This document shows, in pieces, positions 4,325-26,382 of a stretch of 26,402 bases of DNA (positions are counted from its first letter, which is position 1; each line of letters begins with the position of its first letter). Location of the stretch: IMG/VR virus record IMGVR_UViG_3300025879_000089, positions 1-26,402 of that record. One strand, given 5' to 3'. The notes beneath the pieces were generated by a model, which saw only the letters and a program-made list of their open reading frames with translations, was not told where the DNA came from and ran no database searches. Source of the DNA: a virus. The translations under genes were made by a program, and so were the position numbers.

Positions 4325-7300
4325 TTAAGCTTGTATTTTCACATAAGCTTTCAATTTATATTGATAGCCTATTTTTTTATTATATATTAGTCTAAAACTA
4401 AGACTATCATTTTGATATTTCTGTATTTCATAATTAGTTAATGCCATATATCCGTCTGATGTTAAATCATTAGGATCTATTACTGAAATAAATTCAGTTC
4501 CTATATTTTTACCTTCAATACCGTATAATTCTATTTTATCTACAATAAATCTATTTACTATATTATTAACAATATATTGCTGTAAATCATCATCGATAGA
4601 ATCTTTTTCACCAAAAGAGTTTTCAGCCTTTAAATAATTCTTAAATACACCTCGTATACCATCTTCTAATAGTTCATCTATAATTGAAGAAGGTAAATAA
4701 AAGTCAGCAAAAATTTGAGAATCGGTTTCAGCCCAGTGTATTGTTGCTTTATTAAGTAAATTAATTCTAATATAATCTAAAGATTCTAATGAATTTTCAT
4801 TAATAGATAAAAATGAAGTTAATTCATAAATATCATTTACTTTCATTACAGTCGATGCCATAAAAGATTTAACTTCAACAGGACTTAATGTACCATGTGC
4901 ATTTATACTACGACCGGCTGGTAAATTTTTAGTAAAATATACTGAAGAATATTTAGATCTAAAAACATTTAAATCTTTTTTATCAATTGCTATTTCACCA
5001 ATCGCAGGATATAATGGTAATTTATCTGATGTTTGTGATAATTTTAATAAGTTTTTAACGTTCTCATCATTTACTTTATGATAAAATACATTTTTTAAGA
5101 AACCATATTCATTAGAATTCTGGTTAATTAATTTATATGATTCAAATGCAACTCCTAAATTATTAAACTTATTATAGATTAAATAATCTCTTTCATCATC
5201 GAACGTTACTTCATTAAGCTCTACATTATCTTTACTTGGAATTATTAATTTTTGATTTGTTAAAATATCCCCGAATGTCACAACATCTCTAAAAAGAGGA
5301 ATATAATTTCCATTCATTCTTCTTAATTTTGTAAAGTAACCACCATCATCTCTCATTTTAATAACTTTACCTATTTCATCAGAGGATAATTGATAAGATT
5401 TTGGTCTATCACCATCTGATTTTTTAGTAGTTAGAGATGCTTTTATAATTTCAGTTCCATCTTCAACTTCGAAGACAAACCTATTTTGATATTCACCAGT
5501 TTCATCAACTGTTAAATAATTAATATCTCCAAATTTATTAAATCTATCTACAAAATTATAAGCAACAATTTCTTCTAGTAAGTTATTATAACCACCAGCA
5601 CCACCCTGCCAATAATAATAATCCGTATTTAAAGGTGTAGATTTTAAATCTGTTAAAGGTGGCACACCTGTATCTAGGCCGGAAAAATCTTGCGTGAACG
5701 CTCTTGGTAAACCTTCTACTATTACTCTAGTATCATCAATTATATTAATAACTTTCATACCGTAGGGCCCTGTAGGTGCTTTAAATACAATCCAAGAATA
5801 TACACCATCATTATTTAGTTTTATATAATTTGTGAATTTTGGTGGATTTACATCACTATTTAATGATGCCGCCGCAGCATATAATATATTTTCACCGGTT
5901 TCAGACCAGTTTATAGGTGCATCATTTGAATCATAACCCAATCTAATTAAAAATGGAATATTAGTATCTTCTATATTACCATCCTCTTTTAAAATATCAT
6001 TTAATTCATAGCACGATTTACGATCAATATCTATTTTCTTAGTATCTTCAATAACAGTTAATGTAATAACCACACATATAAATTTATGAATATCGTTTTT
6101 AATTACATCGTAAGTTACTAAATTACTTTCTCCAAATTTATAATCAAATGTAACACCAAATCTATAGTTATTAACTTCTGTTGAATTAATAAATTCTGTT
6201 GGTGCTTTTTTTAAGTATTCCTTTCTTTTCTTATAAATATATCTTAACCCTCTAAAAACGCTTGTTGGATTAGAAACACCAGTACCTCCGCCAAATATAC
6301 TATATAATTTTTTACTATTATCATCTACCCAGATGTTATTATCTTCATTAAAATTACCATTTCTATTAAAATACATAGAAAAATAATCTATTTTAGTAGA
6401 TTTTAATTGGTCTAATGTAATTCCACTTTCACTATTTTCAAATGCGGTATAAGAATCTAGGCCTGTTAATGTATTTTCAGTATAAAAATAAGAAGGAATC
6501 TTATTAATATGAAAATGTTCCATGTTTAAATGTTCTGGATTCCTACCAGAAGTAATTGTTATATTCGGTGATAAGTTATCACTACCAAATGCCTCATTTA
6601 CATTTAAGATATAAGGTAAATTTCTAGCATTAGTTGCATTTTTTAATGCAAATTTCATAATAGTAGGTATAACCCTACTTCTAACCGCAGTTTCTTTTAA
6701 ATTATTTTCATCTAATCTATCATATTCAGATTCAATATACTCATTAGAAACATCTGTATCAATATCATCAGAATTTAAAACAGGTGTTAATCCACTAAAA
6801 TAATCAATTGAATCAAAATCATCATTGGATTCATATACTAAATCACCTAAGCTAGAATTTGAAGTATCATAAAAATCAAAATTAAAATCCTTTAAATTAT
6901 ATGCACTAAATTTACCATGCTTTGGTTTATGTAACTCATATACTTCTATTAAATTATCATTAGAAACTTTAACAGGTTTATCAACAATAATCCTCCAAAG
7001 ATTAACATCATAAGCATCTTGAGTTATTTCTTTAATTTGTGTATATTGATTTAAATTTTTACTCTTTAACCATTGACCTATTTTAATATCTCCTAATTCA
7101 CTTTGATTAACTATAAACATTGCACCCTCTTTAGAGCCGCCAACAGAAGTAAATATATTCCATTTAGAAAATTTTTCAGGATCTGAATCTAAAAGGCCTA
7201 TATTATCTAAATTACCAGCCTCAACATCTATAAAATCAATAAGATTTGTTTTATAAATTCCTAGTGCAGTACGTCTTCTATTGTATCCAGCGCTAATATC

Positions 7301-8767
7301 TTCAATAATAATTGAATTATTTATAACAGTTGTTTTATATGTTAATACCTCACTTAATTTTATTGAATTAGATAACGCAATTGCAATTTGAACCAAAGTA
7401 CCTTGTGTTGAAAATCTACCCCTTTCACCAGTTCCAGCTGGAAGTAATGGATCTGCTAAAAACGTATAATCACCTAAATTATATTTAGAAATTTTAAGTT
7501 CTGTTTTATCTGCAATAAAAACTCTATCATTAGGAGATGGTGTATCTTTAATAGTTAATTTTAAAAAACCCTTAGCTGATGTTTTATTATATAAAGTCTC
7601 AATAATATTACCAGTCGATACATATCCAGATAAGTTTTTTATATCACCATTAATAGACACTGGTAATTTTAAATTGCCAAAAATAGTATTATTTTTAACA
7701 TGGTGAAATTTACCGTATTTATCCTTAATATAATTTAAAGTTGGAATTTTTAAATCTTCATATTTAGGAAGCATATCTTCAGCATTTAATGAAGTATCTA
7801 CTAAATCATAATTAGTTTCATAACTATTAAGTTTAATGTATATTAAGCCATCTTTAGTGATATTATCTATATCAAAAGATCCTTCATCAAATGAATCTAC
7901 ATATAAACCAAAATATCTATAAATATGATAATCTTCAGCAGTTGTATCATCAAATAAAAATTCTAAATTAATTAAATTTGCTGAAATAATACCATTCTTT
8001 TCAAAACCACTAGTTAAATATTCATTAGCAATAATTTCAGGCTGATCAACTATTAAATAATCTTTGGTTATATTTACGTCTTTACTAACAAATCCACCGT
8101 TTATAGTATCAATACCATTATAAGATGTTGTACTATTAGAATCAAAATTAAATGATATTGGAGCCGATGGAAACCCAGAAGAATATACGTGGTTATGTAA
8201 ATAATCGCCTAAATTAGAACCTCTCTTAAGGTCATAATTTTTAATAATAGTAGCATCTTTAAGAAGTTCTAAAATTCTATTGTTTTGACCTAAAATATCT
8301 TCTGAATAATTTTTAGAATAATCAGTATTTTTAATTCTATAAATTACAAAATTTGATGGGATTTTTTTATCTAACCAAATAGGGGCTAATAATTTATATT
8401 GTTCATCATATAATTTAGTAGTATTAAAAGAAGCACCATAATGATATTGATCTTCAAATTGTTTGCTATATTCATCATACGCTGTTAAATCTGATAATTT
8501 CCTTAATGTAAAATATCTTTCACTTAAAGGTAAATTATTATAGAATCTACGCACATCATTAGAGTAAGTTCCATTAGATTTAATATCAAACTTTTGATAT
8601 TGTATCTTAGATAATGATTTATTAGCTTTAAAAGAACTTAAAAACAATTCCTCATTTGAATCTACTACTAATTTAATATTACTAGTAAACTTAGGATTAG
8701 TTCTTAATAAAGCAAATGAAGCATTATCAACTATATTATTAGAAATATTGAATTCAGTTGTAGCCAT
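4325..8767 (-). CDS. Very large structural protein, probable baseplate/tail component (1480 aa)
   Basis: At 1480 residues this is the largest gene in the window. It has no signal peptide or membrane segment. I do not recognise a named domain. The N-terminal 150 residues (KFTSNIKLVVDS, YHYGASFNTTKLYDE, LAPIWLDKKIP) look like a conserved opening module that I associate, from memory only, with large structural proteins of T4-like phages of Bacteroidota. The rest is Asn/Asp/Ser/Thr-rich with alternating hydrophobic residues, as expected for a beta-rich virion protein. It lies between the 1227-residue protein and the fibre gene, so a peripheral baseplate or fibre-attachment role is inferred from position. 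A 64-base gap upstream carries a promoter-like GATATATAG 23 bases before the ATG. Function is unassigned. Confidence 0.9.
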   Translation of the reverse strand: MATTEFNISNNIVDNASFALLRTNPKFTSNIKLVVDSNEELFLSSFKANKSLSKIQYQKFDIKSNGTYSNDVRRFYNNLPLSERYFTLRKLSDLTAYDEYSKQFEDQYHYGASFNTTKLYDEQYKLLAPIWLDKKIPSNFVIYRIKNTDYSKNYSEDILGQNNRILELLKDATIIKNYDLKRGSNLGDYLHNHVYSSGFPSAPISFNFDSNSTTSYNGIDTINGGFVSKDVNITKDYLIVDQPEIIANEYLTSGFEKNGIISANLINLEFLFDDTTAEDYHIYRYFGLYVDSFDEGSFDIDNITKDGLIYIKLNSYETNYDLVDTSLNAEDMLPKYEDLKIPTLNYIKDKYGKFHHVKNNTIFGNLKLPVSINGDIKNLSGYVSTGNIIETLYNKTSAKGFLKLTIKDTPSPNDRVFIADKTELKISKYNLGDYTFLADPLLPAGTGERGRFSTQGTLVQIAIALSNSIKLSEVLTYKTTVINNSIIIEDISAGYNRRRTALGIYKTNLIDFIDVEAGNLDNIGLLDSDPEKFSKWNIFTSVGGSKEGAMFIVNQSELGDIKIGQWLKSKNLNQYTQIKEITQDAYDVNLWRIIVDKPVKVSNDNLIEVYELHKPKHGKFSAYNLKDFNFDFYDTSNSSLGDLVYESNDDFDSIDYFSGLTPVLNSDDIDTDVSNEYIESEYDRLDENNLKETAVRSRVIPTIMKFALKNATNARNLPYILNVNEAFGSDNLSPNITITSGRNPEHLNMEHFHINKIPSYFYTENTLTGLDSYTAFENSESGITLDQLKSTKIDYFSMYFNRNGNFNEDNNIWVDDNSKKLYSIFGGGTGVSNPTSVFRGLRYIYKKRKEYLKKAPTEFINSTEVNNYRFGVTFDYKFGESNLVTYDVIKNDIHKFICVVITLTVIEDTKKIDIDRKSCYELNDILKEDGNIEDTNIPFLIRLGYDSNDAPINWSETGENILYAAAASLNSDVNPPKFTNYIKLNNDGVYSWIVFKAPTGPYGMKVINIIDDTRVIVEGLPRAFTQDFSGLDTGVPPLTDLKSTPLNTDYYYWQGGAGGYNNLLEEIVAYNFVDRFNKFGDINYLTVDETGEYQNRFVFEVEDGTEIIKASLTTKKSDGDRPKSYQLSSDEIGKVIKMRDDGGYFTKLRRMNGNYIPLFRDVVTFGDILTNQKLIIPSKDNVELNEVTFDDERDYLIYNKFNNLGVAFESYKLINQNSNEYGFLKNVFYHKVNDENVKNLLKLSQTSDKLPLYPAIGEIAIDKKDLNVFRSKYSSVYFTKNLPAGRSINAHGTLSPVEVKSFMASTVMKVNDIYELTSFLSINENSLESLDYIRINLLNKATIHWAETDSQIFADFYLPSSIIDELLEDGIRGVFKNYLKAENSFGEKDSIDDDLQQYIVNNIVNRFIVDKIELYGIEGKNIGTEFISVIDPNDLTSDGYMALTNYEIQKYQNDSLSFRLIYNKKIGYQYKLKAYVKIQA

Positions 8768-8789
8768 CTAAGTGATATTTTTCTTTAGT

Positions 8790-8798
8790 CTATATATC
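8790..8798 (-). promoter_or_regulatory. Candidate phage promoter (GATATATAG)
   Basis: On the minus strand this reads GATATATAG, one base from the GATATATAA found before three other genes. It lies 23 bases upstream of the ATG of the 1480-residue protein in one of the few real intergenic gaps. It overlaps an 8-base inverted repeat (8789-8796 with 8806-8813). Confidence 0.5.
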
Positions 8799-8831
8799 AA
8801 CTTTTTATATAGAGCTAATATAAATTACGTC

Positions 8832-11800
8832 CTAGAACCATGTTCTATCACCATAAATATTTGGTAATCCAAAATCTATTTTATTTGATAAAAATGCATT
8901 TCTAATATTAGTATTAGATGGTGATGCAGATGCAAACGTATTATAGTTAGTTAATAAAGAAGCATCAATAGAATTTATATTTTTACCTAAAGGTCTATAT
9001 TTAGCATATACTGAAATATCAAAATTAAAACTATTGTTGTATGAATCTAAAATATCTAATCCAATTTCTTTAGTATAAGTTAAATTTTTTGAAAGTCCAG
9101 TAACAACGCCACCAATTCTACCAATACCCGAAGATCCAGGTCCGTAATAATCTGTCATTCTATATTGAAAAACTAGATCTAATGTAATTGCATTTGCATT
9201 TCCACCTGGAATTATAGTTTTACCAGTTTTATTATCTGCATCTACAACCAAAGATTCTTTATCTAACGGAGCAACATATAAAAACGAGCCACATGACTGA
9301 CCACCTAATAAATATTGATCGTCTGGTTCAAATGAATTTTTAATAGTCTTTCTTAAACCAGGATTACCTTCATTATTTATAGTTTCAATTATTTTAAATG
9401 CAGTTTGTTGTTTACCATGACTATCATCTGATCTTCTAGGTGTTGTTTTTGGAAAACCAGCCATACCATTACTTTGAATATCTAATAAAGTTAAGTTTCC
9501 TCCATTACCTTGTAATAAAGGATGGTCTATATGCATTAAAATACCATTATTATATTTTTTATTAGTTACAGTAGCTAAAGTTGTTAATAATGGCTCAGAA
9601 GTGCCAGTGTTATAATCACCGTTCCAAATAAAATCAACAGCACTTTCAGATCCATTATTATCATATGCTGTAAAATTTGCACTAGAATAATCTTTAGAAC
9701 CATCAGGTAGTGTTAGAACTCCTTCAATATTATAATTTAAACCATATTCGTATAAAGAATATCCAGTGTCACCGCCAGTAGTATCCCCATCATTGGGGTC
9801 ATGAATATCCTCAACTACATAAAAATCTTTATCATTAGCCAAGTTAGTAAATCTTGAATTAATAAATTGACCCCTTAATTGAGATGATTGCTCTGGACTT
9901 GAATTAAACCATTCATAATCTACAATATCAGTTGAATCTAAGTTTTGATAAACCACAGGTACTAAATCATATTTACCTTCAGTTGTATAATATGTATTAT
10001 CTATTACTTTCGGATCAATAGTACCAGTACCTAAACCAAATTTAGTATTATCAGTAGAGGTATATGCAGGTTGTGTACGATCACCTATAATTCGTGCAAT
10101 TAATTCTAAATTAGTTGCTTTAGTATTAGAAAGTTCAACCTTAAAGTTTTTAGTAACAATAAATCCTTTAAAATTAGTTTCAGGTAATTCATCAATATAA
10201 TAACCAGCAAATAATTTAACTTTAGAGTTATTTGTTACTGGTGTTACATTACCGTCTTCATCAATAATACGTACTTGTAACTCTCCTATAGTACCTTCAA
10301 CCTGTGCTCTTAATCTTAAGACCTCTTCTTGTAATTGTACTAATTTATCATAAACTGAAATAGGCGCCTGTTCATCAGTTAAGAAACCAGAAGAAATTCC
10401 GGTTGCAGTATGTGCAAAAAACTTATCATTAGTTGTAAAACCATCACCTATATGCTGATATAATCCGGCTGCAGATAAATCAGATTCTATTTGTACTTTA
10501 ATATTATCAATTTCATTAGAAGATACAACACTACTCAATGAATCTGTTGCTAATTCTCCTTCTGGAAATTCTATTCTAGTTATTTCTGACCAGTCGCTTA
10601 CTATAGGATTAGCTGGGAATCCTGCTTCAGAAACGGATTTTACCATTATTTCTACAATTTCACCGCTACTAATAGGAATATCTAATGAATTGAAGTTAAT
10701 TGCTTGTGCATCTTCTTCGCTTTCTGACATCCATTTATAAACACCATTATCATTTTTACCACGAGATCTAACTGGTCCATTAAGTTCTACCCAGTTTGAA
10801 AACGCTGCAGTTTTTTCGGTATTATTTACACCATCATTAAATTTAATCTGTTCTATCTGGCTAGTTTTACCATTAGTCGATACGTAACGATATCTAATCT
10901 TAAATTGAACAACTTCTTGTGAAATTTCTTCACCAATAATTTTTGGATCTGGTACTGACCAAAATCCACGAACTCTAAATTTAGGAGATACTTTAGCTAA
11001 GTCAGAAGATTCAGCACTTGCCTTAATATCAGTCACTAATGAAGCGTATAACTTAGATTCAGAATCTCTTTCAGATATTAATGAATTTAATTCATTTTTT
11101 TGTTTATCTTTTTCAATTTGAGATTTAAATTTACGAGTATTAAGTTCAGCTTTTTTCTGACGTATTGATTCATCTAACTGTTTTAAAGTTTGTTCAGATG
11201 TAATTTTATCAGCTTTTAACCTTTTAATTTTTTGTGTTGTTGAATTATCAGTTAAATGTTTGTTTATTTGTATTACTTTAAAGTTATCATCTTGTAATAC
11301 TGGCGCATTTGGAACAATACCAACTGATGCTGGCGGAATATAATCAACCTTTAGTGATTTAATAAATTGTCCAAAATCAGAAACCTCATCTCTATAATAT
11401 TCTGCAAGAGATTTTGAATTTCCTTCAGCATCAATTATTAAAAGTTCATTTGAAAAGAATCCAACTCCTGGAGAATAATCCTCAGCAGGAATATTAGAAC
11501 TTGGATCAATTGGTTTAACAAAAACAATCTGTCTTTCATTATAACCAACTTTAACTTCAATATCTACATTAGTATCTATATCTTTATAAACATTAAGTTG
11601 ATTTGCACCAATTTTAATAACTTCAAATCCTTCAAGTAATTGAAGTTCAACTTGTGTTGTTGAATTATCAATTGACTTGATTTGGTATCTAGTTGAATAG
11701 TTACCAGAATTTATAATTAAAGAATCACCAACCTTTAAGACCTCAGTGTCTTTAAGTGTTTTAGATGAATCTGTGTAAGTTAATTTGTTAAGGGTATATA

Positions 11801-12515
11801 ACTTGATAGTCTTTGTTTGGGTTGAACCATCAACAGTTACTGATTTTTGCTGATTGTCTATCTTAATAACATCAAAAGATCCATTATATTGAATAGTTCT
11901 GATTGGCATATCAACAATCTCAGAATCTATTCTATATTTTATAGAATTTTCAATAAGTGCATTTTTAAAGGTAGAATAATCTATTTCGCTATTTCCATTA
12001 TAGATGCTATTAAATTGTTCAACGCTTGCATCATCTTCATTTTCAAAAATATATCTTTCGGTGTAAACTCTTTCGGTTTCTACTGGGATTTGACCACTAA
12101 CATCTAAATTAATAGTTAGTAATGGGTTTAAAAAATCTTCGAAGAAATCGTTTAATTTAGTACTAAATTCAGTAGGTGCTGCAAGAGAAGTAATTGACTT
12201 TGAAGGTCCTTTAAGTCTTGCAGTATGAATAGTTCTATAAGAACCATCCTTAAGGCGAACACTTGTATTTGCTCCACTGAGACCAGCAATAGAACTCATA
12301 TTCTTATTCAATCTCTCAATCTCAGATTTTAAATATCCAAAAGCTGGAATCTGTATGGTATCCATAGTTCCAGTTTTAGTATTAAATAAATCAATTGTGA
12401 CATTTTCTTTATCTGTCGTAATTGCTTCATTTATTCTGTTAAATGTCTCAAGTGAATTAGTGTTTAATTCTAAAAACTGCTCAAGTAATTGTGATATTGA
12501 ATTGCTAGCGCTCAT
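8832..12515 (-). CDS. Large baseplate/tail structural protein with coiled coil and FnIII-like domain (1227 aa)
   Basis: This 1227-residue protein begins with a helical segment (SISQLLEQFLELNTNSLETF) and has a charged heptad-like coiled coil at about 425-500, rich in Lys, Glu and Gln. Residues about 514-650 are beta-rich (RGFWSVPDP, QFKIRYRYVS, VEIMVKSVSEAGFP, SDWSEITRIEFP). This is the strand and tryptophan pattern of a fibronectin type III-like domain, and the assignment is by pattern only. A second helical stretch near 725-745 (VYDKLVQLQEEVLRLRAQVE) could trimerise. The C-terminal 400 residues look beta-rich. The ATG overlaps no gene but lies one base after the previous stop (TAA-T-ATG), so translation is probably coupled. 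The likely role is an elongated baseplate or fibre-connector protein. It occupies a position like T4 gp9-gp12 but shows no similarity I can claim. Confidence 0.9.
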   Translation of the reverse strand: MSASNSISQLLEQFLELNTNSLETFNRINEAITTDKENVTIDLFNTKTGTMDTIQIPAFGYLKSEIERLNKNMSSIAGLSGANTSVRLKDGSYRTIHTARLKGPSKSITSLAAPTEFSTKLNDFFEDFLNPLLTINLDVSGQIPVETERVYTERYIFENEDDASVEQFNSIYNGNSEIDYSTFKNALIENSIKYRIDSEIVDMPIRTIQYNGSFDVIKIDNQQKSVTVDGSTQTKTIKLYTLNKLTYTDSSKTLKDTEVLKVGDSLIINSGNYSTRYQIKSIDNSTTQVELQLLEGFEVIKIGANQLNVYKDIDTNVDIEVKVGYNERQIVFVKPIDPSSNIPAEDYSPGVGFFSNELLIIDAEGNSKSLAEYYRDEVSDFGQFIKSLKVDYIPPASVGIVPNAPVLQDDNFKVIQINKHLTDNSTTQKIKRLKADKITSEQTLKQLDESIRQKKAELNTRKFKSQIEKDKQKNELNSLISERDSESKLYASLVTDIKASAESSDLAKVSPKFRVRGFWSVPDPKIIGEEISQEVVQFKIRYRYVSTNGKTSQIEQIKFNDGVNNTEKTAAFSNWVELNGPVRSRGKNDNGVYKWMSESEEDAQAINFNSLDIPISSGEIVEIMVKSVSEAGFPANPIVSDWSEITRIEFPEGELATDSLSSVVSSNEIDNIKVQIESDLSAAGLYQHIGDGFTTNDKFFAHTATGISSGFLTDEQAPISVYDKLVQLQEEVLRLRAQVEGTIGELQVRIIDEDGNVTPVTNNSKVKLFAGYYIDELPETNFKGFIVTKNFKVELSNTKATNLELIARIIGDRTQPAYTSTDNTKFGLGTGTIDPKVIDNTYYTTEGKYDLVPVVYQNLDSTDIVDYEWFNSSPEQSSQLRGQFINSRFTNLANDKDFYVVEDIHDPNDGDTTGGDTGYSLYEYGLNYNIEGVLTLPDGSKDYSSANFTAYDNNGSESAVDFIWNGDYNTGTSEPLLTTLATVTNKKYNNGILMHIDHPLLQGNGGNLTLLDIQSNGMAGFPKTTPRRSDDSHGKQQTAFKIIETINNEGNPGLRKTIKNSFEPDDQYLLGGQSCGSFLYVAPLDKESLVVDADNKTGKTIIPGGNANAITLDLVFQYRMTDYYGPGSSGIGRIGGVVTGLSKNLTYTKEIGLDILDSYNNSFNFDISVYAKYRPLGKNINSIDASLLTNYNTFASASPSNTNIRNAFLSNKIDFGLPNIYGDRTWF

Positions 12516-17765: not shown

Positions 17766-18035
17766 TTATTTTACTTTTTTATCCTCTTTTTTAATAGTAA
17801 ATGATTTATAAGACCTTAAATAAGATACACTATCAATAATGTCTGCAAGCACATGTTGTATCATTATTAAAAAATCACTTAGACTTGGATTCCTCTGGAT
17901 GTGTCTAGAGAGAGAATTCAATAAAACGTTTTCTCTATATGTATTCCCAACATTTTTACGATCATCCATGATAGATTTCCTAACATCATAGTTCCTTTTC
18001 TTTCTTACTTTAAATAAATTCTTAGTAACATCCAT
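17766..18035 (-). CDS. Small basic protein between gp6 and gp7 homologues (89 aa)
   Basis: The start codon shares one base with the stop of the gp6 homologue (TAATG), and the stop lies 3 bases before the gp7-like ATG. Expression is therefore tightly coupled to both wedge proteins. The protein is strongly basic at both ends (KVRKKRNYDVRK and KKEDKKVK) with a hydrophobic helix between (residues 50-75, SLSDFLIMIQHVLADIIDSV). It is too short and too polar for a membrane anchor. I recognise no family. A wedge assembly factor or minor baseplate component is inferred from position. AAAGG lies 7 bases upstream of the ATG. It is the only Shine-Dalgarno-like sequence I saw in the window, and it falls inside the gp6 coding sequence, so it may be accidental. 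Confidence 0.8.
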   Translation of the reverse strand: MDVTKNLFKVRKKRNYDVRKSIMDDRKNVGNTYRENVLLNSLSRHIQRNPSLSDFLIMIQHVLADIIDSVSYLRSYKSFTIKKEDKKVK

Positions 18036-19855
18036 TATAGTGCCTTTCTATTTTGTGCTTGTAATCTACTGAACACTGTGTTTGGTACTGCAGGCTCGTC
18101 AAAATAAACTGAAAGTGCCGCAATTTCTCCCATTTTCGCCTCATCAGGTACCATTATGCCGTCGCGATCCATCCATCCGCCTCTAAATAGGGCAACCTCC
18201 TCCTTTTCAAGGATAATATCACCAAAAGAATCTAGATTAATAACCGCTTCTGGAAGAGCTGCACCTGGTTCAAAGTTAACTTGGTTTGTTACTACAGTCC
18301 TCTTAAAGAAAACATATTTTTGTTTTCCATTTCCTATCTCTTCAAGAACCGGAGTACTTGGAGTAACTGTTACAGTGTCTACTGAATAATATCCAAGTCT
18401 TCTTGCGGTTTCCTCCTTTTCAGAAGTAAATTTAACATTTACCGAATCAATACCTTCAACACCTTCTAGGAGTGCAATAATATCTGATTTTGGCAAACGA
18501 TCTCTTCTTGTTATGTTAATTAAATAGTCTGAAATCTTTGCACGAATTTCAGTATGTAGATTAGTCTTATTATATCCTTCAAAATATCTAACTTTAACAT
18601 CCATTCTAAAATATTGAACTTTAGGCTCCACAATTTTTACCTCAGTTGTAACCATTTGTTGTCTACTATTTTCTAATGTTGAAAGTATTCCATTCTTTTC
18701 GTCTTCTGAGAAAAAGAACTCATCTACTGATAAATTAAAATAGTCGTTATTTTTTGAAAGTTTTTTCTTAGTGTCTGGTAACATAAACAAATAAATCACA
18801 TTGTCATCGTCTAAATATCCATCGTCAGTTGTGTTGTATGCATCTAGGTATGAAAACATGCCGTATTTTGAAAGAAATGCTTCATAGTTTTCAGGAGTTG
18901 CAAGAACAAATGAATGACTCTGTAGCGGGGCAATTAACTTAGTTAATTCAGTACTTTCAGGGTTGGCTCCCATTTTAGGTGCTGTTGTAAAATTAGCCTC
19001 TAACATATTATTTAAATCGAATGTATCACCAAGTGAATCAAATCCTTCAGTTATAAATTTAAATCTTAAATCTTTAGAACCTGTTAAATTACCATTCGCA
19101 CCATCCGTAATTAAATACTCAACCTCAATAGAAGCACCTTCAACTGGAATCATTCCAAATGAACCATTTCCAAAATAAATATCAAGACCTCCAGTTATTC
19201 CAGTCTTAACAAGATAACCCTTGGTTCCAAATTTCATATCATATAGAGAATCGTATTTAGTCCAAAGCTCGCTATTAACACTTACTCTAACCGAATGATG
19301 GTCTGTGTTTCCTTTTGTAATAATATTAAAAGACTGCAAACTTTCACCAGTACCTGTAACTATTTGTGTCTCAATTTTACCTTGAATTACTGGTATTGTA
19401 ATATAGTTTGGGTTACTTTTTTCAATTCTAAATTGGTCATTGTTTGTTCTTAATATGTATTCTAACATATTCTTTTCAGCCTTAATTATAGTGTTCGCTG
19501 GTATATTCAGGGCATCTCCGCCAATATCATTTCCAGCTAAAGTATTTAATCTTACCTGGATTTCTCCTATAGCTGATGCGCCTCTAAATGAATCATGTCC
19601 TGCCAATCTTGATAAACCATATATAGATTCAGGATTTTGGGCAGTTAGAATATTTTGTTCAACTGTAGAGTCTTCTATATAATAGAATATCATCTCAGTT
19701 AAGCTTGAAAGAACACTTAGTATCTGAGAAAATGGAGATGCTGTGGTAAATAATTCACCAGCACGGCCATATATTCTAGAGATATATGATTGAGTGTCGG
19801 TAATCATCTCATTGGCTCTAATTCTAGCCGTTGATAAAAATTTAAATTCTGCCAT
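18035..19855 (-). CDS. gp6-like baseplate wedge protein (baseplate J family)
   Basis: At 606 residues it is close to T4 gp6 (660). Residues 10-75 (RANEMITDTQSYISRIYG, TEMIFYYIEDSTVEQNIL) form the helical N-terminus typical of gp6. Residues about 224-257 (YFGNGSFGMIP, GASIEVEYLITDGANGN) carry the hallmark baseplate J signature: FGNG-G-P-G-I-Y-DG-GN. Later segments include QYFRMDVKVRYFEGY and a DRLPKSDIIALLEGVEGIDS stretch, also typical of the family. gp6 dimers bind gp25 and gp7 and form the inner ring that joins the six wedges around the hub. It lies 17 bases downstream of gp25, the usual partner. There is no Shine-Dalgarno sequence upstream of the ATG. Confidence 0.92.
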   Translation of the reverse strand: MAEFKFLSTARIRANEMITDTQSYISRIYGRAGELFTTASPFSQILSVLSSLTEMIFYYIEDSTVEQNILTAQNPESIYGLSRLAGHDSFRGASAIGEIQVRLNTLAGNDIGGDALNIPANTIIKAEKNMLEYILRTNNDQFRIEKSNPNYITIPVIQGKIETQIVTGTGESLQSFNIITKGNTDHHSVRVSVNSELWTKYDSLYDMKFGTKGYLVKTGITGGLDIYFGNGSFGMIPVEGASIEVEYLITDGANGNLTGSKDLRFKFITEGFDSLGDTFDLNNMLEANFTTAPKMGANPESTELTKLIAPLQSHSFVLATPENYEAFLSKYGMFSYLDAYNTTDDGYLDDDNVIYLFMLPDTKKKLSKNNDYFNLSVDEFFFSEDEKNGILSTLENSRQQMVTTEVKIVEPKVQYFRMDVKVRYFEGYNKTNLHTEIRAKISDYLINITRRDRLPKSDIIALLEGVEGIDSVNVKFTSEKEETARRLGYYSVDTVTVTPSTPVLEEIGNGKQKYVFFKRTVVTNQVNFEPGAALPEAVINLDSFGDIILEKEEVALFRGGWMDRDGIMVPDEAKMGEIAALSVYFDEPAVPNTVFSRLQAQNRKAL

Positions 19856-19872
19856 TTTGTTAATATTCTATT

Positions 19873-20226
19873 TTATACATAAACTTCGATTTTATATCTA
19901 TTGTCTATTGTTATATCTATAAAAACTACATTTTTTTCAGTTTGACTTAAAAAATCAACAGAAACTGTAGTGTTATATTTTTTTGCTAATGGAATGTATG
20001 TATCAAATTGATCGGTGATAACCCCCTTTAGCATTCCATCGTTATACATAAATGAATATACATAATCTTCCAAGTTTGCACCAAAATTAACGGCTCCTAA
20101 AACATCTCCTTTTTTTGTAAAAAGACACATTTCAATTTGAGTTAACAACATTCCAATTTCTTCATCAACTTGAAGTGTATTAACATCGTATCCAGGATCG
20201 CCTATATCTTTTATGTAAAATTCCAT
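19873..20226 (-). CDS. gp25-like baseplate wedge protein (GPW/gp25 family)
   Basis: This 117-residue protein compares with 132 residues for T4 gp25. It shows the family pattern: a hydrophobic helical stretch (GMLLTQIEMCLFTKKGDVLG), the signature GANLEDYVYSF, then amphipathic helices and a closing pair of strands (NVVFIDITIDNRYKIEVYV). Members of this family have lysozyme-like annotations in old databases but act structurally, binding gp6 and initiating the sheath at the baseplate. The gene is directly upstream of the gp6 homologue with a 17-base gap, which matches the physical partnership. The ATG follows a very A/T-rich leader. Confidence 0.93.
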   Translation of the reverse strand: MEFYIKDIGDPGYDVNTLQVDEEIGMLLTQIEMCLFTKKGDVLGAVNFGANLEDYVYSFMYNDGMLKGVITDQFDTYIPLAKKYNTTVSVDFLSQTEKNVVFIDITIDNRYKIEVYV

Positions 20227-20245
20227 ATTTATATATATTTAGTTT

Positions 20246-21073
20246 TTAAGAGTGCATCATCCAATCAGTACCCTCATCACTTTTAATTTCTTCAACAACT
20301 GCTTCAAGCTCACTTTCACCCATTCCCTGTATCAGGTCTGCATTTACTGTAACATTTCCAGGAAGAACAAATCCAAATACTCCAAGTTTTTGACCTAAAG
20401 AAATTTTAATTTTAGCAGCACAATATCTAAAGAAAGCCTCATCACCATATAGCGAGCAATCAGGAATAGTTTCATAAACTTCAAGAACAACATCTTTAAA
20501 TGGAGTTTCCCCTGTAAATCGTAACTCATGTGTTAATTGACTATACTGATAACTAATTGGGTTGTGGATAATTTGACGTGCTAGATCAAAGAAGCTTTCA
20601 TTAATTACATAATATTGTAAGTTCTCTGCAGCATATCCTGTTTTAGAACCTCCATAGGTACCTCCAAGCATCATTCTTTCAATCGCAAAATCTCCTTGCG
20701 TAAAATTAATATCCATACTACCTCCCCAATTTGAACCAACGGGAGCACACGCAAACACTGAAAAGATTTCTCCGCCGCTACCATCTGTTGGGGGTTCGAA
20801 AGTAAAACTTCTTGTTTTTTTAAAATGTTCAGACTTAAATAAACCTTTTGGTAAAACTATAAAGTTTTCTCTAACAGAGTACTCATAATTTTTATAGAAC
20901 CATTTTTTCGCACGTTTAACTATATTTTGAACCTCTTTTTTTGGAAGATTCATTGGAATCATACATGAACCTGTAATTTCGTCTGCTAATTCATTAACAA
21001 ACGTGTTAAAACAATCAGTTTGATAAACTGGGTCTTGTAAATTTGATTCATTTCCTATATAAATATCACTCAT
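20246..21073 (-). CDS. Conserved-looking virion structural protein (275 aa)
   Basis: I do not recognise a named family. The N-terminus (FNTFVNELADEITGSCMIP, then LPKKEVQNIVKRAKKWFYKN) and C-terminus (RYCAAKIKISLGQKLGVFGF, LPGNVTVNADLIQGMGESEL) look well conserved and resemble, from memory, structural proteins encoded next to gp25/gp6 in large T4-like phages. A central section (DFAIERMMLGGTYGGSK, YYVINESFFDLARQII, LEVYETIPDCSLYGDEAF) suggests a mixed alpha/beta fold. It sits between the amidoligase and gp25, with short gaps on both sides (15 and 19 bases). It could fill the role of T4 gp53, a wedge component missing by name here, but similarity to gp53 is not evident. It has no signal peptide or membrane segment. 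Confidence 0.88.
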   Translation of the reverse strand: MSDIYIGNESNLQDPVYQTDCFNTFVNELADEITGSCMIPMNLPKKEVQNIVKRAKKWFYKNYEYSVRENFIVLPKGLFKSEHFKKTRSFTFEPPTDGSGGEIFSVFACAPVGSNWGGSMDINFTQGDFAIERMMLGGTYGGSKTGYAAENLQYYVINESFFDLARQIIHNPISYQYSQLTHELRFTGETPFKDVVLEVYETIPDCSLYGDEAFFRYCAAKIKISLGQKLGVFGFVLPGNVTVNADLIQGMGESELEAVVEEIKSDEGTDWMMHS

Positions 21074-21088
21074 TTCTTTTTATTATTT

Positions 21089-22381
21089 TTATATTGGTGT
21101 TGATAGTATTATTTCAGTTTGATTAAATACAGTTGTCTTTTTATCGTATCCTCCCTCTCGGAATATTCCTCCATTCATTGTTCCTTTAAAAGAACCCTTT
21201 CCATAAACATAACAATCATCAGTTACAACACTACGATGAACGTACGAACTTTTAAGTTTTGATGTTGTTATTTGTGATGAAGCATAGAAGTTACAAGAGT
21301 CAATATCAGAACCCTCAATTTGACACGTAAACATATCACAATATCTAAACTCTCCTCTTAAAAAACAATTGACAAAATCATAACCATCTAGATCAACACA
21401 GTAATCAAGTCTTCCATTTTGCACTTGAATCCTGCCAGTGTCTGAGTCATAATTGATGTGACCCTTACTAAAATTACCATGTGTGAATAATTTTATAACT
21501 CGTTGTTTAATATTGCTCCAGTATAAAGAAACTATTTTAGGGTCATCTTTGAGATCTACGGTAAATTTAGTGTCTTTCCAATTTTGAGATATTGTTTTCC
21601 AGTCACTTCTGGCGTCAATTATTCTTTGATTGTTAGAAATTATCCTTTTAAGTTCAATTGCATTGAGTTCTGTAAATTGAGTCGTTTCAGTTGAATTCCA
21701 TAATTGAATTAAAAATCTATCAATAAGGTGTAATATTGTAGTAGTTTTCTTTTGCCAATCCTTTCCACCAACATATCTAAATTCAAGATAATTTTTATGT
21801 CTTTTTTCAAAATTGATACCATAATATTTTGAATCAGGGTAGATAAAGTTTTGTTGGTTTATATGTTTTCCATCAAAAAATGAAACATCATCCTTTGGTA
21901 TAACAAATTTAATTGATTTTGCATAAGCTGAATCCTCTCTTTGTGGAAAAAACTTAAACACTTGCTCTTCATTAAAATCTAGGATAAACTTAAGAGTGTT
22001 CATCTTAGAGATTCTATATTTATTGTCTATTTTATTTTTGTCAAAAGAAAGATTTAAATGAATTGAAGATCTGTCATTAGTATACCCATTCTCATCAATC
22101 CATTGGTTAACTTTGATAATCATTAAGCGTGCGGCAAAATATGGAAGTGCCCCGGTAACAAGCTCCATAAGCTTTGCACCGCCGCTCATATCTGGTTCTA
22201 TCTTAAACTCATCTTGGGTTACTTCAAAGTCACTGTGTGCTTTTTCCTCAATACGAATTTTTTTACCAATAAGTTCCGCAATTTGCTTTGAAGTTTCTTC
22301 TATACTTAAATTTGAATAAAATTCAAATTCCACACCAACAAGCGCATTTTCAAGTATTTTAGAGTCATTTAAGTTATTCAT
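21089..22381 (-). CDS. Probable amidoligase with C-terminal beta-helix-like tail
   Basis: Residues 12-205 carry motifs of the amidoligase / carboxylate-amine ligase fold related to glutamine synthetase and gamma-glutamyl-cysteine ligase. These are GVEFEF (G16, E18, E20), EPDMSGG with MELVTG (D64, S66, E73), SIHLNL (H108) and LEFRY (E200, R202). In that fold such Glu, His and Arg residues bind metal, ATP and the acidic substrate. Such enzymes join a carboxylate to an amine using ATP. The substrate here is unknown. Residues about 324-420 (CVDLDGYDFVNCFLRGEF, RYCDMFTCQIEGSDIDSC) are short repeats like a beta-helix or pentapeptide-type tail, rich in cysteine. The gene starts a new unit after the terminator at 22452-22477 and has a promoter-like GATATATAA 31 bases upstream. 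It could modify virion proteins, but nothing in the sequence shows this. Confidence 0.75.
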   Translation of the reverse strand: MNNLNDSKILENALVGVEFEFYSNLSIEETSKQIAELIGKKIRIEEKAHSDFEVTQDEFKIEPDMSGGAKLMELVTGALPYFAARLMIIKVNQWIDENGYTNDRSSIHLNLSFDKNKIDNKYRISKMNTLKFILDFNEEQVFKFFPQREDSAYAKSIKFVIPKDDVSFFDGKHINQQNFIYPDSKYYGINFEKRHKNYLEFRYVGGKDWQKKTTTILHLIDRFLIQLWNSTETTQFTELNAIELKRIISNNQRIIDARSDWKTISQNWKDTKFTVDLKDDPKIVSLYWSNIKQRVIKLFTHGNFSKGHINYDSDTGRIQVQNGRLDYCVDLDGYDFVNCFLRGEFRYCDMFTCQIEGSDIDSCNFYASSQITTSKLKSSYVHRSVVTDDCYVYGKGSFKGTMNGGIFREGGYDKKTTVFNQTEIILSTPI

Positions 22382-22411
22382 TTATCGATATATTATTAAA
22401 CTACAGTTTGA

Positions 22412-22420
22412 TTATATATC
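22412..22420 (-). promoter_or_regulatory. Candidate phage promoter (GATATATAA)
   Basis: On the minus strand this reads GATATATAA, 31 bases before the ATG of the amidoligase gene and about 30 bases beyond the terminator. It lies within a 13-base sequence (22409-22421, AGATATATAATCA) also present before the S1 gene. T4 late promoters have a single -10-like element TATAAATA, and this motif resembles that type. Assignment as a late promoter is inference. Confidence 0.6.
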
Positions 22421-22451
22421 TCATTAAAATAATTATGTAAATATAAACAAA

Positions 22452-22477
22452 AACCCGAGACTAAAAAATCTCGGGTT
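22452..22477 (-). terminator. Rho-independent terminator after S1-domain gene
   Basis: A perfect 9-base stem (AACCCGAGA pairing with TCTCGGGTT) with an 8-base loop is followed on the minus strand by TTTGTTTATAT. It lies 27 bases beyond the stop of the S1-domain gene and is far more GC-rich than its surroundings. It should end minus-strand transcripts here. The plus strand also has a T-rich stretch a few bases on, but no plus-strand gene is present. Confidence 0.9.
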
Positions 22478-22503: not shown

Positions 22504-23796
22504 TTATAGTTTTAGAAAAACCTTTCTTGTATCAACCTCAATTCTTGTAATTTTAACTGTGATTGTATCGTTCTTTTCAATTGAATCTTTATCAAATTCT
22601 TCTGGAAATTCAGAAACATGCAATAAACCTACAACACCTTCTCCAATATCTAAAAATACACCGTAATCTTTAATAGATTTAACAACACCAGCAACTTCCA
22701 TTGGGAACGTTGTATATTTTTCAGCGATTAATTTCCAAGGGTCAACTACTTCAACTTTTTCTATCTGTGTTAATGTAATTTTATTATTGCTAATTACCTC
22801 CTTAATCTTAAATTGAATCTCATCTCCTGGTTTAATTTCTCTTGCTTTATGTTTCTTAGCAGTTTCTGGATCAAGATCATTTGTATGAATCATTCCAGTT
22901 AAACAACCTTCAAATTCTACAAATACTCCATATTTTGCAGATCCAGTGACATTACCTGTTCTAGTAACATCCATATTAGCAGATACCTCTTCAACTTTAT
23001 TTGGAATCAATGCTTGTAAGTATTTTCTATGAGATACTACGATTGTTCCTTTTTCAGGAGAATAATTCATTGGTACAACATATAATTCAGTTCCAATAAT
23101 AGATTCAAAATCTACTAATTTATTAATTCCTGCAAGAGAACCTGGCATAAAACAATCTATACCTTGTACGTTTACAATATAACCACCGCCTTGAATCATA
23201 CTTAAAACCGTTGCAACATAAGCCGTGTTACCGTCTTCAATTGATTCTAGTAATTCTTTAGTAATTGCGGATTTAACTCCAGCCTCCACTGAACCAATAA
23301 TAAATCCTTTCTTATTAGATGTTCTGTCTCCTGTGATTTGAACTGAAATTGTATTTCCAGGAATTAATTTAGATTTAGAAGCCGATGACTCTCTAGATAA
23401 ATCAACATACACTAGTTCTCTATAACCAACGTCAATTGAACACCATTCCATATCTAGCGCATATATCTTACCCTCATGTGTCTCTCCAACTTTAATATCG
23501 AAGGTGGTTTGATTTTCACTATTGCTATAGAAGCTTTCCATTAAATCATATAACTCCTGTGCGTATGATTCTCTAGAATATACCTTGTCTCCATTTTTTG
23601 TTTTAATATGAGGGTTAGGTTTTCTAGTTGTTGATGGACATCCTGCAATATGTTCATCCCAATTAAATTCTTCAAGCGAAGGGTTTGCATTAATTGTGTA
23701 TGGAGTTTCTTTTGCTTCTTTTACAATAACTTCATCGTTAGTGTTTTCTGTAGAATCTTTGATTCTTAATCTTTTTGTTTTTGTGTCTTGTGACAT
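22504..23796 (-). CDS. Four-S1-domain RNA-binding protein
   Basis: This 430-residue protein has a polar N-terminal region of about 100 residues and then four S1 (OB-fold) repeats at about 102-170, 187-257, 275-345 and 364-430. The last two are the clearest: GNVTGSAKYGVFVEFEGCLT with GMIHTNDL, and GVVKSIKDYGVFLDIGEGVV with GLLHVSEFP, both with the canonical G-x-V-x-G-V-F-V/L pattern. The second repeat (GGGYIVNVQGIDCFMPGS, then VVSHRKYL) resembles the ribosome-binding half of ribosomal protein S1. Bacterial S1 has six repeats, so this is a shorter form. It probably binds single-stranded RNA and could act in translation of phage mRNA or in RNA protection. It lies inside a baseplate module, preceded by a promoter-like motif and followed by a strong terminator. 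Confidence 0.9.
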   Translation of the reverse strand: MSQDTKTKRLRIKDSTENTNDEVIVKEAKETPYTINANPSLEEFNWDEHIAGCPSTTRKPNPHIKTKNGDKVYSRESYAQELYDLMESFYSNSENQTTFDIKVGETHEGKIYALDMEWCSIDVGYRELVYVDLSRESSASKSKLIPGNTISVQITGDRTSNKKGFIIGSVEAGVKSAITKELLESIEDGNTAYVATVLSMIQGGGYIVNVQGIDCFMPGSLAGINKLVDFESIIGTELYVVPMNYSPEKGTIVVSHRKYLQALIPNKVEEVSANMDVTRTGNVTGSAKYGVFVEFEGCLTGMIHTNDLDPETAKKHKAREIKPGDEIQFKIKEVISNNKITLTQIEKVEVVDPWKLIAEKYTTFPMEVAGVVKSIKDYGVFLDIGEGVVGLLHVSEFPEEFDKDSIEKNDTITVKITRIEVDTRKVFLKL

Positions 23797-23830
23797 TTTT
23801 TTGTTTGTTAAAGTGTTAATAATTATATGA

Positions 23831-23839
23831 TTATATATC
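23831..23839 (-). promoter_or_regulatory. Candidate phage promoter (GATATATAA)
   Basis: On the minus strand this reads GATATATAA, 35 bases before the ATG of the S1-domain gene, in a 46-base gap. The 13-base stretch 23828-23840 (AGATATATAATCA) is identical to that before the amidoligase gene. The downstream leader ends in a run of A (ACAAACAAAAAAA before the ATG), as expected for Bacteroidota-type translation starts. Confidence 0.6.
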
Positions 23840-23842
23840 TAA

Positions 23843-25633
23843 TTAAATTACTAGTGGTGAAAATCCAACCATTGGAATTGGACTTACCGGGGTTGTAATT
23901 CCACCTAAGTATAAGAATTTTAATTTTAATAAATGTTTTGCACAAGCAACTGAAACAGCGCTTGCAACTGCCTTTGAAGCCACTGGTGTCAATGGTTGTT
24001 TGCTAAATCTTTTACCAGTATTCCATGCCCTTCTTAAATCATTTGCTAAAATTACTTCAGATCCATATGAAATTGGAGTATAAATTCCACCTAATGGCGG
24101 TTGTGTATTACATGGCGGTATTGGTGGTGTTTTCTTAAATGGCTGCACTGCTGTGCTTTTCCAATAATCAATAATTGCTTTAGCCATTATATTATATCCA
24201 TCGCTATTTATTATAGTTTCACCTCTTTCATTTACATTTTTTGAATTACCCCATTTTCTAAGTAATTCCCACCATAGCTCTTTCTCTTTTTTATATAATC
24301 TTTCTTTTTTACGAATTCTATCAAGTTCATCCCAGCTATCCCCCACATTAACAAGTCTAGCCCGTGTAATAGAATCTACAAGTTTAATGTATGTAAATTT
24401 ACAGATATAGCCATCTGTTGTTAACCATTTTGGTATAGTGATTGGATCATCCTTATGTTGGCTTTGGAAAATATATTCATTTAAAGTATTTTCACTCAAT
24501 ATTCCAAGTTCAATTAATTGAGAGGTATCGGGTATTTTATTTCGAATTGTAGTTTCTACTTTTATTTCGAATTTTTTTTCTAGGGCTCTTAGATTACTAG
24601 GCGTCATATACCTTGTTCTTGATCTTGAAAACATTTCACTTCTTAGTTTTTCTTCTTCAGATTTATAATAACTTTCAATTAAATCTTCAACCCTTTTTGC
24701 AACTTTAGCGCCTAATTTATCATTTCTAGAAATAGCTAAGCGTTCTACCCAGATTTTAAATTCTTCAGAACCGTCACATTGATGTAAAACCCTATCAGCT
24801 AAGACTTCAATAGTCTGCTCTTCTGTTAATTCTGGGATTAGTTGACGAGGAGTCTTACCTTCATTTGGGTCTTTGACAACATTAATCGTGTCGACTTGAC
24901 CCTCATCACCTATTGTTACAGTCGCTTCTTTATTAATTTCTTTAATTAAATTATCATTTAAGTCAAATACGCTCTTAAAAATATAATCATATGTTCCTGG
25001 CGTAGTATCTACTCTAACTTGTAATATTCCATCATCACTTGCAGGCGATAGAGGCTGATCAATACCATTGATAGAGTATAGGAATTTATACGCAACATCT
25101 GGTGTAAAATTTGCAATTGACATAGTTGCATATAATATCCCATCACTACTATTTTCAATTTGAGATGCGGCATCTTGTTGATTTTGACTAATTATTAGGT
25201 CAAAATCAATACCCGCGTAAATATCTATTTCCTTGTATGGAGGACATGTAGATGGAAACATTTGATAAAACCTAAACTTTTTTAAGTTTTCTTCATTATT
25301 TTTAGTCCATTCTTCAATTTCACAAAGGGGATCAAAATCAAAATTGTTGTTAGGTAGAGGTTCAAAGAAATCCGAATACCTTGACATTTCAAATTTATTC
25401 TCAAACTTGATTGTTTCATTTTCATAAATTTCTCTGAAGGCTGCTTTAAATCCGGTTTCTAAAATACGTTTATCGCCAGAAACATGTTTATTTCCAAATA
25501 TAGTTTGAGAACTCTTAACGGCCTTAAAATACTCATTTGCTAAAAATATAGCAAATTTATCTCTAGTCTTTGCATTTCTAGATTCTAATTTTTTAGAGAC
25601 GTTTTTAACAAATGTTGGCCATTGTGCCGGCAT
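23843..25633 (-). CDS. Unrecognised probable virion protein with Ig-like domain (596 aa)
   Basis: I recognise no named family. Residues 1-75 form a helical module (WPTFVKNVSKKLESRNAKTR, FLANEYFKAVKSSQTIFGN). Residues about 165-242 are a beta-sandwich-like, Ig/PKD-type domain (YATMSIANFTPDVAYKFLYS, VRVDTTPGTYDYIFKSVFDL). Residues 260-465 are largely helical and highly charged. A proline-rich linker at 500-514 (KTPPIPPCNTQPP) leads into an unusual C-terminus at 515-596. That C-terminus alternates small residues with Ile/Leu/Pro (GGIYTPISYG, VASKAVASAVSVACAKHLLK, GGITTPVSPIPMVGFSPLVI). It follows the gp5-like gene after a 29-base gap, so a hub or tail role is inferred from position. It starts at ATG 25633, 20 bases after a GATATATAA motif. 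Confidence 0.88.
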   Translation of the reverse strand: MPAQWPTFVKNVSKKLESRNAKTRDKFAIFLANEYFKAVKSSQTIFGNKHVSGDKRILETGFKAAFREIYENETIKFENKFEMSRYSDFFEPLPNNNFDFDPLCEIEEWTKNNEENLKKFRFYQMFPSTCPPYKEIDIYAGIDFDLIISQNQQDAASQIENSSDGILYATMSIANFTPDVAYKFLYSINGIDQPLSPASDDGILQVRVDTTPGTYDYIFKSVFDLNDNLIKEINKEATVTIGDEGQVDTINVVKDPNEGKTPRQLIPELTEEQTIEVLADRVLHQCDGSEEFKIWVERLAISRNDKLGAKVAKRVEDLIESYYKSEEEKLRSEMFSRSRTRYMTPSNLRALEKKFEIKVETTIRNKIPDTSQLIELGILSENTLNEYIFQSQHKDDPITIPKWLTTDGYICKFTYIKLVDSITRARLVNVGDSWDELDRIRKKERLYKKEKELWWELLRKWGNSKNVNERGETIINSDGYNIMAKAIIDYWKSTAVQPFKKTPPIPPCNTQPPLGGIYTPISYGSEVILANDLRRAWNTGKRFSKQPLTPVASKAVASAVSVACAKHLLKLKFLYLGGITTPVSPIPMVGFSPLVI

Positions 25634-25653: not shown

Positions 25654-25662
25654 TTATATATC
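25654..25662 (-). promoter_or_regulatory. Candidate phage promoter (GATATATAA)
   Basis: On the minus strand this reads GATATATAA immediately after the stop codon of the gp5-like gene and 20 bases before the ATG of the 596-residue protein. It is identical to the copies before the S1 and amidoligase genes, and the preceding base A is shared as well. Confidence 0.55.
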
Positions 25663-26382
25663 TTATTTATTTATTTGTTGATAATCCTCGTGTGTGCTAC
25701 TTAATTGACTAATTGTCGCAGGGGTTGCTCCAACTGGAGTACCAGAAGGACCTACTCCAGTTGGATGAAAATGAGTTTTATAATCATCTAATAGTTTTTG
25801 TAACCATTCTTGTAATGATGCACCTCGAACTACAGGTTCTGTTTCATCTTCACTACCTTCACCAGTATTAGAAAGAAATACATTACCAGCATCTAAGAAT
25901 ATCTTTTCATCTGTTGTTATTTTGATAAAACCTTGTTCGTCAATTTGAATTAGCGGTCTCTCTTTAGCGCCGCTTCCTCGAGTAATTACCAGACCGTCCT
26001 CTGGCGAGTGATAGATTCTAACATTTCTTACAGAATCATAAACTAATGAAACAACATCTTGTGGTGCAGCAGAAGGGTCTAAAATATCAGCCTTTAATGC
26101 TTTACTTTGATTAATTTGAAACCAATACTCTGGATGATAGATATTACCATTGTCAAATCTAACTGCAACAACAGTCCCAATATTTGGAATTGAATGAGAA
26201 CCAACATGGTCACGATTCATTGGAGTAGCCCATGGAATCGCTTCACTTGGAAGGTCATCAAATTTACCAAACACCTTTACTCTACATCTCCCTAAATTAG
26301 AAGGGTCCGCATTATCTACGACCTCTCCAATCCAATGAGTGTCTCTTATTTTATTTTTTCCAGCTTCTTTCCCAATACTCAT
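25663..26382 (-). CDS. gp5-like baseplate hub/spike protein with OB-fold, no lysozyme domain
   Basis: Residues 16-88 match the N-terminal OB-fold of the T4 gp5 / gpV spike family: WIGEVVDNADPSNLGRCRVK, IPWATPM, IGTVVAVRFDNGN, PEYWF. Residues 110-170 are beta-strand repeats (VRIYHSPEDGLVITRGSG, IQIDEQGFIKITTDEKIFLD) that probably form a short trimeric beta-helix. Residues 188-220 (ASLQEWLQKLLDDYKTHFHP, then TGVGPSGTPVG) match the H-x-H and GPSG-P ending common in spike proteins. At 239 residues it is less than half of T4 gp5 (575) and has no muramidase domain between OB-fold and helix. It should sit at the centre of the baseplate and form the membrane-piercing spike. Only 20 bases upstream are visible, with AATATATAC at 26391-26399, 9 bases before the ATG. 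Confidence 0.9.
   Translation of the reverse strand: MSIGKEAGKNKIRDTHWIGEVVDNADPSNLGRCRVKVFGKFDDLPSEAIPWATPMNRDHVGSHSIPNIGTVVAVRFDNGNIYHPEYWFQINQSKALKADILDPSAAPQDVVSLVYDSVRNVRIYHSPEDGLVITRGSGAKERPLIQIDEQGFIKITTDEKIFLDAGNVFLSNTGEGSEDETEPVVRGASLQEWLQKLLDDYKTHFHPTGVGPSGTPVGATPATISQLSSTHEDYQQINK

Follow-up and report, generated by a model that had tools for sequence, protein, structure and literature searches.

A four-domain S1 protein of large phages and its possible action on host ribosomes

Bacteroidota start translation without Shine-Dalgarno (SD) pairing, and a phage-encoded S1 protein may bear on how their ribosomes choose mRNAs. The gene at positions 22504..23796 (minus strand, as are all features given below with two-dot coordinates) of the IMG/VR virus record IMGVR_UViG_3300025879_000089, whose 26,402 nucleotides are called the window here, raises the question whether such a protein acts as a ribosomal protein S1 (bS1) or is an S1-fold protein of another kind. 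The gene is an intact ORF of 430 amino acids with an ATG start. Its product scores 81.4 bits with the Pfam S1 model (PF00575; cut-off 22), two repeats passing singly, and the NCBIfam rpsA models match it colinearly over residues 70-428 (E 1e-33 to 4.5e-41). This match is far beyond chance, though below the curated cut-offs: the best rpsA equivalog score is 140.8 bits versus the curated 524, and for this reason we do not file the protein as bS1 itself. Among solved sequences, E. coli bS1 is the best match, and PHROGs hold no family for the protein. Pfam shows no companion or catalytic domain beside the S1 repeats, while matches of the PNPase, RNase R or Tex type are confined to the repeats and are far below the cut-offs. 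A PNPase/RNase-type S1 protein, which an earlier sequence-only reading had named as the grouping that would speak against a ribosomal role, was rejected on these grounds. Host contamination was also rejected, since the gene is intact and lies in a phage gene order conserved across dozens of contigs.

For repeat assignment we built six separate HMMs, one per bS1 domain, using approximate E. coli domain boundaries after UniProt. Repeat 1 (residues 100-172; 23281..23499) resembles D1, the D1 model giving 15.4 bits and the others at most 3.6. Repeat 2 (residues 185-262; 23011..23244) resembles the bS1-specific D2 (36.1 bits versus at most 5.7) and carries CFMPGSLAGINKL and VVSHRKYL. The remaining two repeats are of the RNA-binding class: repeat 3 (residues 272-348; 22753..22983) scores 44.2, 29 and 16 bits with the D5, D4 and D3 models, respectively, and repeat 4 (residues 362-430; 22507..22713) is D4-like (42.6 bits). 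The protein thus consists of four tandem S1 domains, of which the first two are of D1 and D2 type and the last two of the RNA-binding class; like bS1, with which it is colinear, it begins with D1-D2. Aligning the repeats to the bS1 domains, as had been proposed, shows that D1, D2 and two repeats of the D3-D5 class are retained and that D5-D6 are missing. The same D1-D2-Dx-Dx assignment was obtained with the domain HMMs for most of 16 phage S1 proteins.

The repeats differ in conservation. Repeat 1 is the most diverged one of the window protein (15 bits) and is nearly degenerate in Lak phages, in which repeat 4 is missing as well. The phage equivalents of E. coli D39 and K43 in repeat 1 are D and R, and the E. 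coli D2 aromatics F120 and F130 are kept as Y206 and F216 in the window protein (for the roles of these E. coli residues see PMC4288201 and PMC10123108). Much of D2 is invariant among the phage S1 proteins, and this domain belongs to their most constrained parts. In repeat 3, F292 is invariant and H304 nearly so, and in repeat 4, Y378, F381 and H393 are invariant in alignment A4. The second repeat had been said to resemble the ribosome-docking part of S1; its D2 identity is specific to bS1 (36 bits versus less than 6), but E. coli S1 docks mainly through its N-terminal helix and D1 on uS2, and D2 lies beside the mRNA (PMC4288201, PMC10123108).

An AlphaFold2 model built from 29 phage sequences (the window protein and IMG/VR rows only) shows a helix (residues 79-95) followed by four OB barrels. 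With a mean pLDDT of 74 and a pTM of 0.45, the arrangement of the domains in the model is uncertain. The four repeats noticed in the initial reading are therefore borne out by the HMMs, by the colinear alignment with bS1 and by these barrels. The top structural matches of the model are 9guv, 9gut and 9guq (Z 10.8-13.7), which show bS1 bound to the 30S subunit in mRNA-delivery and pre-initiation complexes, and the D1-D2 pair of the model superimposes on ribosome-bound bS1 with 3.6 A over 166 residues. All of the best whole-length matches are bS1 on ribosomes; single repeats also match S1 folds of NusA and Tex.

Ahead of the repeats, residues 44-52 (23641..23667) read FNWDEHIAG and match the F[DN]W..[YF]E.G motif of bS1 from the class Bacteroidia; the counterpart in phage relatives reads FDWDAYEADCP. 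The pattern [FY][DNE]W[DESN] is found near the N-terminus in 78 of 80 Bacteroidales bS1 (for example, FDWDAFEKG) and in none of 12 S1 proteins from non-Bacteroidota phyla. In a sample of the phylum, all 15 sequences that most resemble the Bacteroidales query have F[DN]W, ten of them fitting the strict pattern and five reading FDWH or FNWH (for example, FNWHNFQEG), and the 15 more distant Bacteroidota bS1 show no match to the motif. Judging from similarity, the 15 motif-bearing sequences probably belong to the class Bacteroidia. The motif is located outside the four repeats and before the predicted helix, and its Bacteroidia type suggests a host-like origin.

The motif and the helix are separated by 25 residues that form a phage-specific basic segment, CPSTTRKPNPHIKTKNGDKVYSRES (residues 53-77; 23566..23640; RKPNPHIK), which is conserved in IMG/VR relatives and in part in Lak phages and is absent from host bS1. 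The predicted helix itself, YAQELYDLMESF.. (residues 78-95; 23512..23565), contains YAQELYDLME and lies where bS1 has its uS2-docking helix; the alignment with ribosome-bound bS1 sets it against the beginning of that protein. F44, W46 and Y78 are invariant across the 29 phage proteins. The N-terminal helix of E. coli S1 docks on uS2 (PMC4288201), and its aromatics F5 and F9 are essential docking residues (PMC10123108). For F9 the clade of the window offers no clear counterpart, M or L standing at the aligned position.

A scan of viral contigs with the window protein as a single query gave no relatives, and a nine-row alignment including a host S1 was too divergent as a query; an alignment of phage S1 proteins succeeded and identified more than 550 relatives in IMG/VR, 80 of which were fetched for analysis. 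The window is a 26-kb fragment, and the contigs of relatives reach 236 kb. In the phage collection, the closest proteins are encoded by LR756500 (462 kb, 38% identity), by LR745206, LR756504, LR756502 and LR756501 (634-735 kb) and by Lak Prevotella phages, the identity to the S1 proteins of the 462-735 kb genomes being 31-38%. Records labelled "Acinetobacter", "Listeria", "Enterococcus" or "Bacteriophage sp." were judged to be bacterial sequence and left out of the phage S1 set: L010 has the gene order cmk-rpsA-ihfB, L012 and L015 contain IspH fusions, and the rest resemble host S1.

All tested S1 proteins, whether from IMG/VR phages, from the huge phages of 462-735 kb or from Lak phages, form one clade (support 100/100) on a long branch. 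Because of this branch length, the tree, which was aimed at the span from the helix to D4, does not place the donor; a grouping of the phage clade with Bacteroidia is not rejected (AU p 0.30). The FDW motif lies outside the span of the tree and is a tree-independent hint of a Bacteroidia donor. On the host capture for which a phylogeny had been proposed, the FNWD motif shared with Bacteroidia bS1 suggests a host-like origin, and the tree gives one phage clade without deciding on the donor. The likely history is an ancient capture, most probably from a Bacteroidia host, followed by vertical inheritance in a large-phage lineage. The dN/dS ratios of seven pairs are about 0.05-0.15, demonstrating purifying selection on the S1 gene.

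The gene neighbourhood is conserved. The window and most IMG/VR relatives share one gene order: baseplate hub, 596-aa protein, S1, an optional gene, an amidoligase-like protein, an Ad2-like connector, a gp25-size protein and a baseplate wedge. In the window, the gpV/gp5-like hub OB protein (25663..26382; Phage_base_V, phrog_430) adjoins the contig end and the 596-aa neighbour at 23843..25633 has a conserved position; downstream of S1 are a syntenic gene with an Amidoligase_2-like N-terminus in Pfam (21089..22381) and, in fixed order, the connector, gp25-size and wedge genes (18035..21073; phrog_211, phrog_219 and synteny). The amidoligase-like N-terminus is joined to a C-terminal part of pentapeptide-like look. 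When the amidoligase-like neighbour served as the query in place of S1, an S1 gene turned up in 74 of 74 loci with enough upstream sequence, showing that the S1 gene is fixed near the window. Many relatives have an extra gene between S1 and the amidoligase-like gene (262-267 aa in L131:9248-10051 and L141:10203-10892), and L141 also has a gene that by eye appears to encode a GIY-YIG homing endonuclease; the window has neither.

Placement in the structural block is not general, because S1 of Lak phages lies near a DnaB-like helicase; in a 634-kb phage the baseplate genes of the window were not found beside S1. For several genes next to S1 in the phages of 634-735 kb, Pfam and PHROG searches revealed no clear function. 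Two very long proteins of 1480 and 1227 aa are encoded at 4325-12515 of the window; relatives of both occur a few kb from S1 in 634- and 642-kb phages but not in the part retrieved from the 462-kb relative.

The S1 gene is flanked by putative transcription signals of its own. The promoter-like box AGATATATAATC (23829..23840) lies approximately 32 nt ahead of the S1 start, and an identical 12-mer at 22410-22421 precedes the next gene, these being the two occurrences on the coding strand of the window. Among 52 distinct S1 leaders, 48 contain ATATATAA. Because a sigma-70 scan gave promoter hits no more frequent than in shuffles, the support for this box comes from conservation alone. Boxes of the form AGATATATAA at 23829-23840, 22410-22421 and 25654-25663, ahead of S1 and of the genes downstream and upstream of it, respectively, are a possible late promoter of this phage group. 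Directly 3' of S1, an intrinsic terminator, AACCCGAGATTTTTTAGTCTCGGGTT with a T-rich tail (22452..22477), has a folding energy of -18.9 kcal/mol (z -6.6, 0/200 shuffles), and a hairpin with a T-run follows the S1 stop codon in 46 of 52 relatives, mostly in the same place and with differing sequences. Given the box upstream and the terminator past the stop, S1 is probably a separate transcription unit inside the baseplate block. The location within the structural region that had been assigned to the gene thus holds for the baseplate/tail block of the window, but the gene looks like its own transcription unit and is found elsewhere in Lak phages. In addition, 40 of 52 S1 leaders contain an element of TTAAC followed by a T run and an A run (for example, in window 23797-23842), which is rare elsewhere and could be an autoregulatory site.

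The lack of SD sequences noted in the initial reading was confirmed. Neither GGAGG nor AGGAG precedes any gene of the window, where the longest match is an AAGG in front of a single gene, and none of 406 distinct upstream regions from the window and its relatives contains a 5-nt SD core; these leaders are A-rich. As a pointer to an S1 function this lack says little by itself: Bacteroidia hosts do not use SD sequences themselves (PMC9976891, PMC6847099), the anti-SD being hidden in their ribosomes (PMC9976891), so the same absence is expected of any phage of these hosts and is weak evidence for a role of S1. In vitro, bS1 of F. johnsoniae boosts initiation on an SD-less mRNA (PMC9976891).

A second ribosomal protein, bS21 (PF01165), is encoded on 22 of 44 S1-bearing contigs tested (14/24 and 8/20), some long contigs of the S1 clade being without it. 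In the clade of the window its gene is found 16-24 kb upstream of that for S1 and in the same orientation, and the window contig ends before that point; the nearest relative, L127, encodes it approximately 20 kb upstream of S1, also on the same strand (G079:C1:56789-56923). The phage bS21 proteins look Bacteroidia-like. Most retain the KA.Y.Q region, in which by our reading the tyrosine that clamps the anti-SD (Y54 in F. johnsoniae) would lie; in the nearest relative this residue is F. In E. coli ribosomes D1 of bS1 is in contact with bS21 (PMC10123108), and the entry of viral bS21 into ribosomes has been demonstrated (PMC6375957).

In 2020, Al-Shayeb et al. (PMC7162821) described S1-domain proteins of huge phages, remarked on the missing SD sequences of these phages and suggested that the proteins take part in initiation "on or off the ribosome"; Bacteroidetes hosts are predicted for the huge phages above 634 kb and for Lak. 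The S1 proteins of Mahaphages and relatives have four or three S1 domains and SD-less genomes, and they fall into the same clade as the window protein (100/100). The window protein therefore belongs to this published kind, and its core hypothesis is already in print. It differs in belonging to an IMG/VR sub-clade with a fixed position in the baseplate block, a conserved N-terminus (FDWD, RKPNPHIK and YAQEL) and its own transcription signals; in the excerpts of PMC7162821 we found no description of the baseplate-block position, the N-terminal region or the transcription signals for huge-phage S1. To this our analysis adds the identity of the domains, an N-terminus of Bacteroidia type, the fixed presence of the gene in close relatives of the window, its probable separate transcription and its frequent pairing with bS21. 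The 2020 proposal can thereby be tested on a specified protein with defined residues and numerous natural variants.

Among other known systems, Bacteroidia bS1 (rpsA) has in common with the window protein the D1-D2 order and signatures, the F[DN]W..[YF]E motif and a helix before D1, whereas identity to one Bacteroidales bS1 is 26%, and the window protein has four domains instead of six and the extra basic N-terminal segment. The bS1 of Microcystis phage PhiMa05/MaAM05 (PMC13157829) is likewise an S1 homologue carried by a phage and has been proposed to take the place of host S1; unlike the window gene, it adjoins ispH, rplU and rpmA, and it falls on another tree branch, being a separate capture. 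Phage bS21 (PMC6375957, PMC9723584) is a distinct protein of the same mRNA exit site, with a conserved late-module position and Bacteroidetes hosts, and accompanies S1 in half of the contigs tested here.

Starting from the observed anatomy and conservation of the protein, the fixation of its gene, its transcription signals and its co-occurrence with bS21, we consider the best explanation, with a probability of about 0.6, to be a captured, truncated bS1 that acts on host ribosomes in mRNA selection. It would dock via the N-terminal helix and D1 on uS2 of the host 30S subunit at the mRNA exit site and compete with, or add to, host bS1; D2 would flank the mRNA path, and repeats 3-4 would catch the A-rich, SD-less phage leaders. 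The loss of two C-terminal domains and the presence of the RKPNPHIK segment may shift which mRNAs are favoured, and phage bS21 may remodel the same site. Several sequence features count against docking: conservation is lowest in D1, the repeat that would dock, the two essential E. coli helix phenylalanines are not clearly matched, and the 25-residue phage segment parts the motif from the helix. The scores below the rpsA cut-offs, the SD absence equally expected from the hosts, the donor not placed by the tree and the long contigs lacking bS21 count against the explanation as a whole. The divergence of D1, strong in general and nearly complete in Lak phages, would also fit a protein that has lost stable docking and melts, protects or carries phage mRNA off the ribosome, or serves as a cofactor of an RNA-processing enzyme. 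Host S1 acts as a cofactor of T4 RegB. The canonical RNA-binding positions retained in repeats 3-4 agree with such a chaperone, and Al-Shayeb et al. (PMC7162821) leave the choice between on and off the ribosome open; however, a chaperone would have no need to keep the Bacteroidia motif, the helix and D1-D2, yet F44, W46, Y78 and D2 are among the most constrained parts, and we regard this alternative as unlikely.

The fixed position between the gpV-like hub and the baseplate genes in relatives of the window could instead point to a virion component, an OB-fold protein in the tail or one packaged and injected to act early, as packaging has been raised by Chen et al. for phage bS21 (PMC9723584). 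This is improbable given the apparent promoter-like box and terminator of the S1 gene, its surroundings in Lak and 634-kb phages, and the retention of RNA-binding positions and of the bS1 D2. More improbable still is a transcription-linked factor binding RNA polymerase or nascent phage RNA in a NusA-like or Q-beta-replicase-like manner: single repeats do match NusA and Tex by fold, and D1-D2 of E. coli bS1 also anchor on Q-beta replicase (PMC4288201), but the best whole-length matches are all ribosome-bound bS1, KH or other NusA domains are absent, and no RNA polymerase gene was recognized beside S1.

The phages have retained D1-D2 and two RNA-binding domains and lost the remainder, and a fixed phage S1 that is probably under separate control and frequently comes with bS21 offers a natural experiment on the parts of S1 that decide mRNA choice. 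We suggest, tentatively and with less confidence than for S1 itself, that the phages rebuild the Bacteroidia mRNA exit site with a shortened bS1 and a Bacteroidia-type tyrosine-clamp bS21 at once; if true, this two-protein rebuild would give hosts without SD pairing an initiation complex specialised for the phage. As a separate observation near bS21, an ATP-grasp gene (L226:753-1781) matches the phage family "ribosomal protein S6 glutaminyl transferase" (RimK-like).
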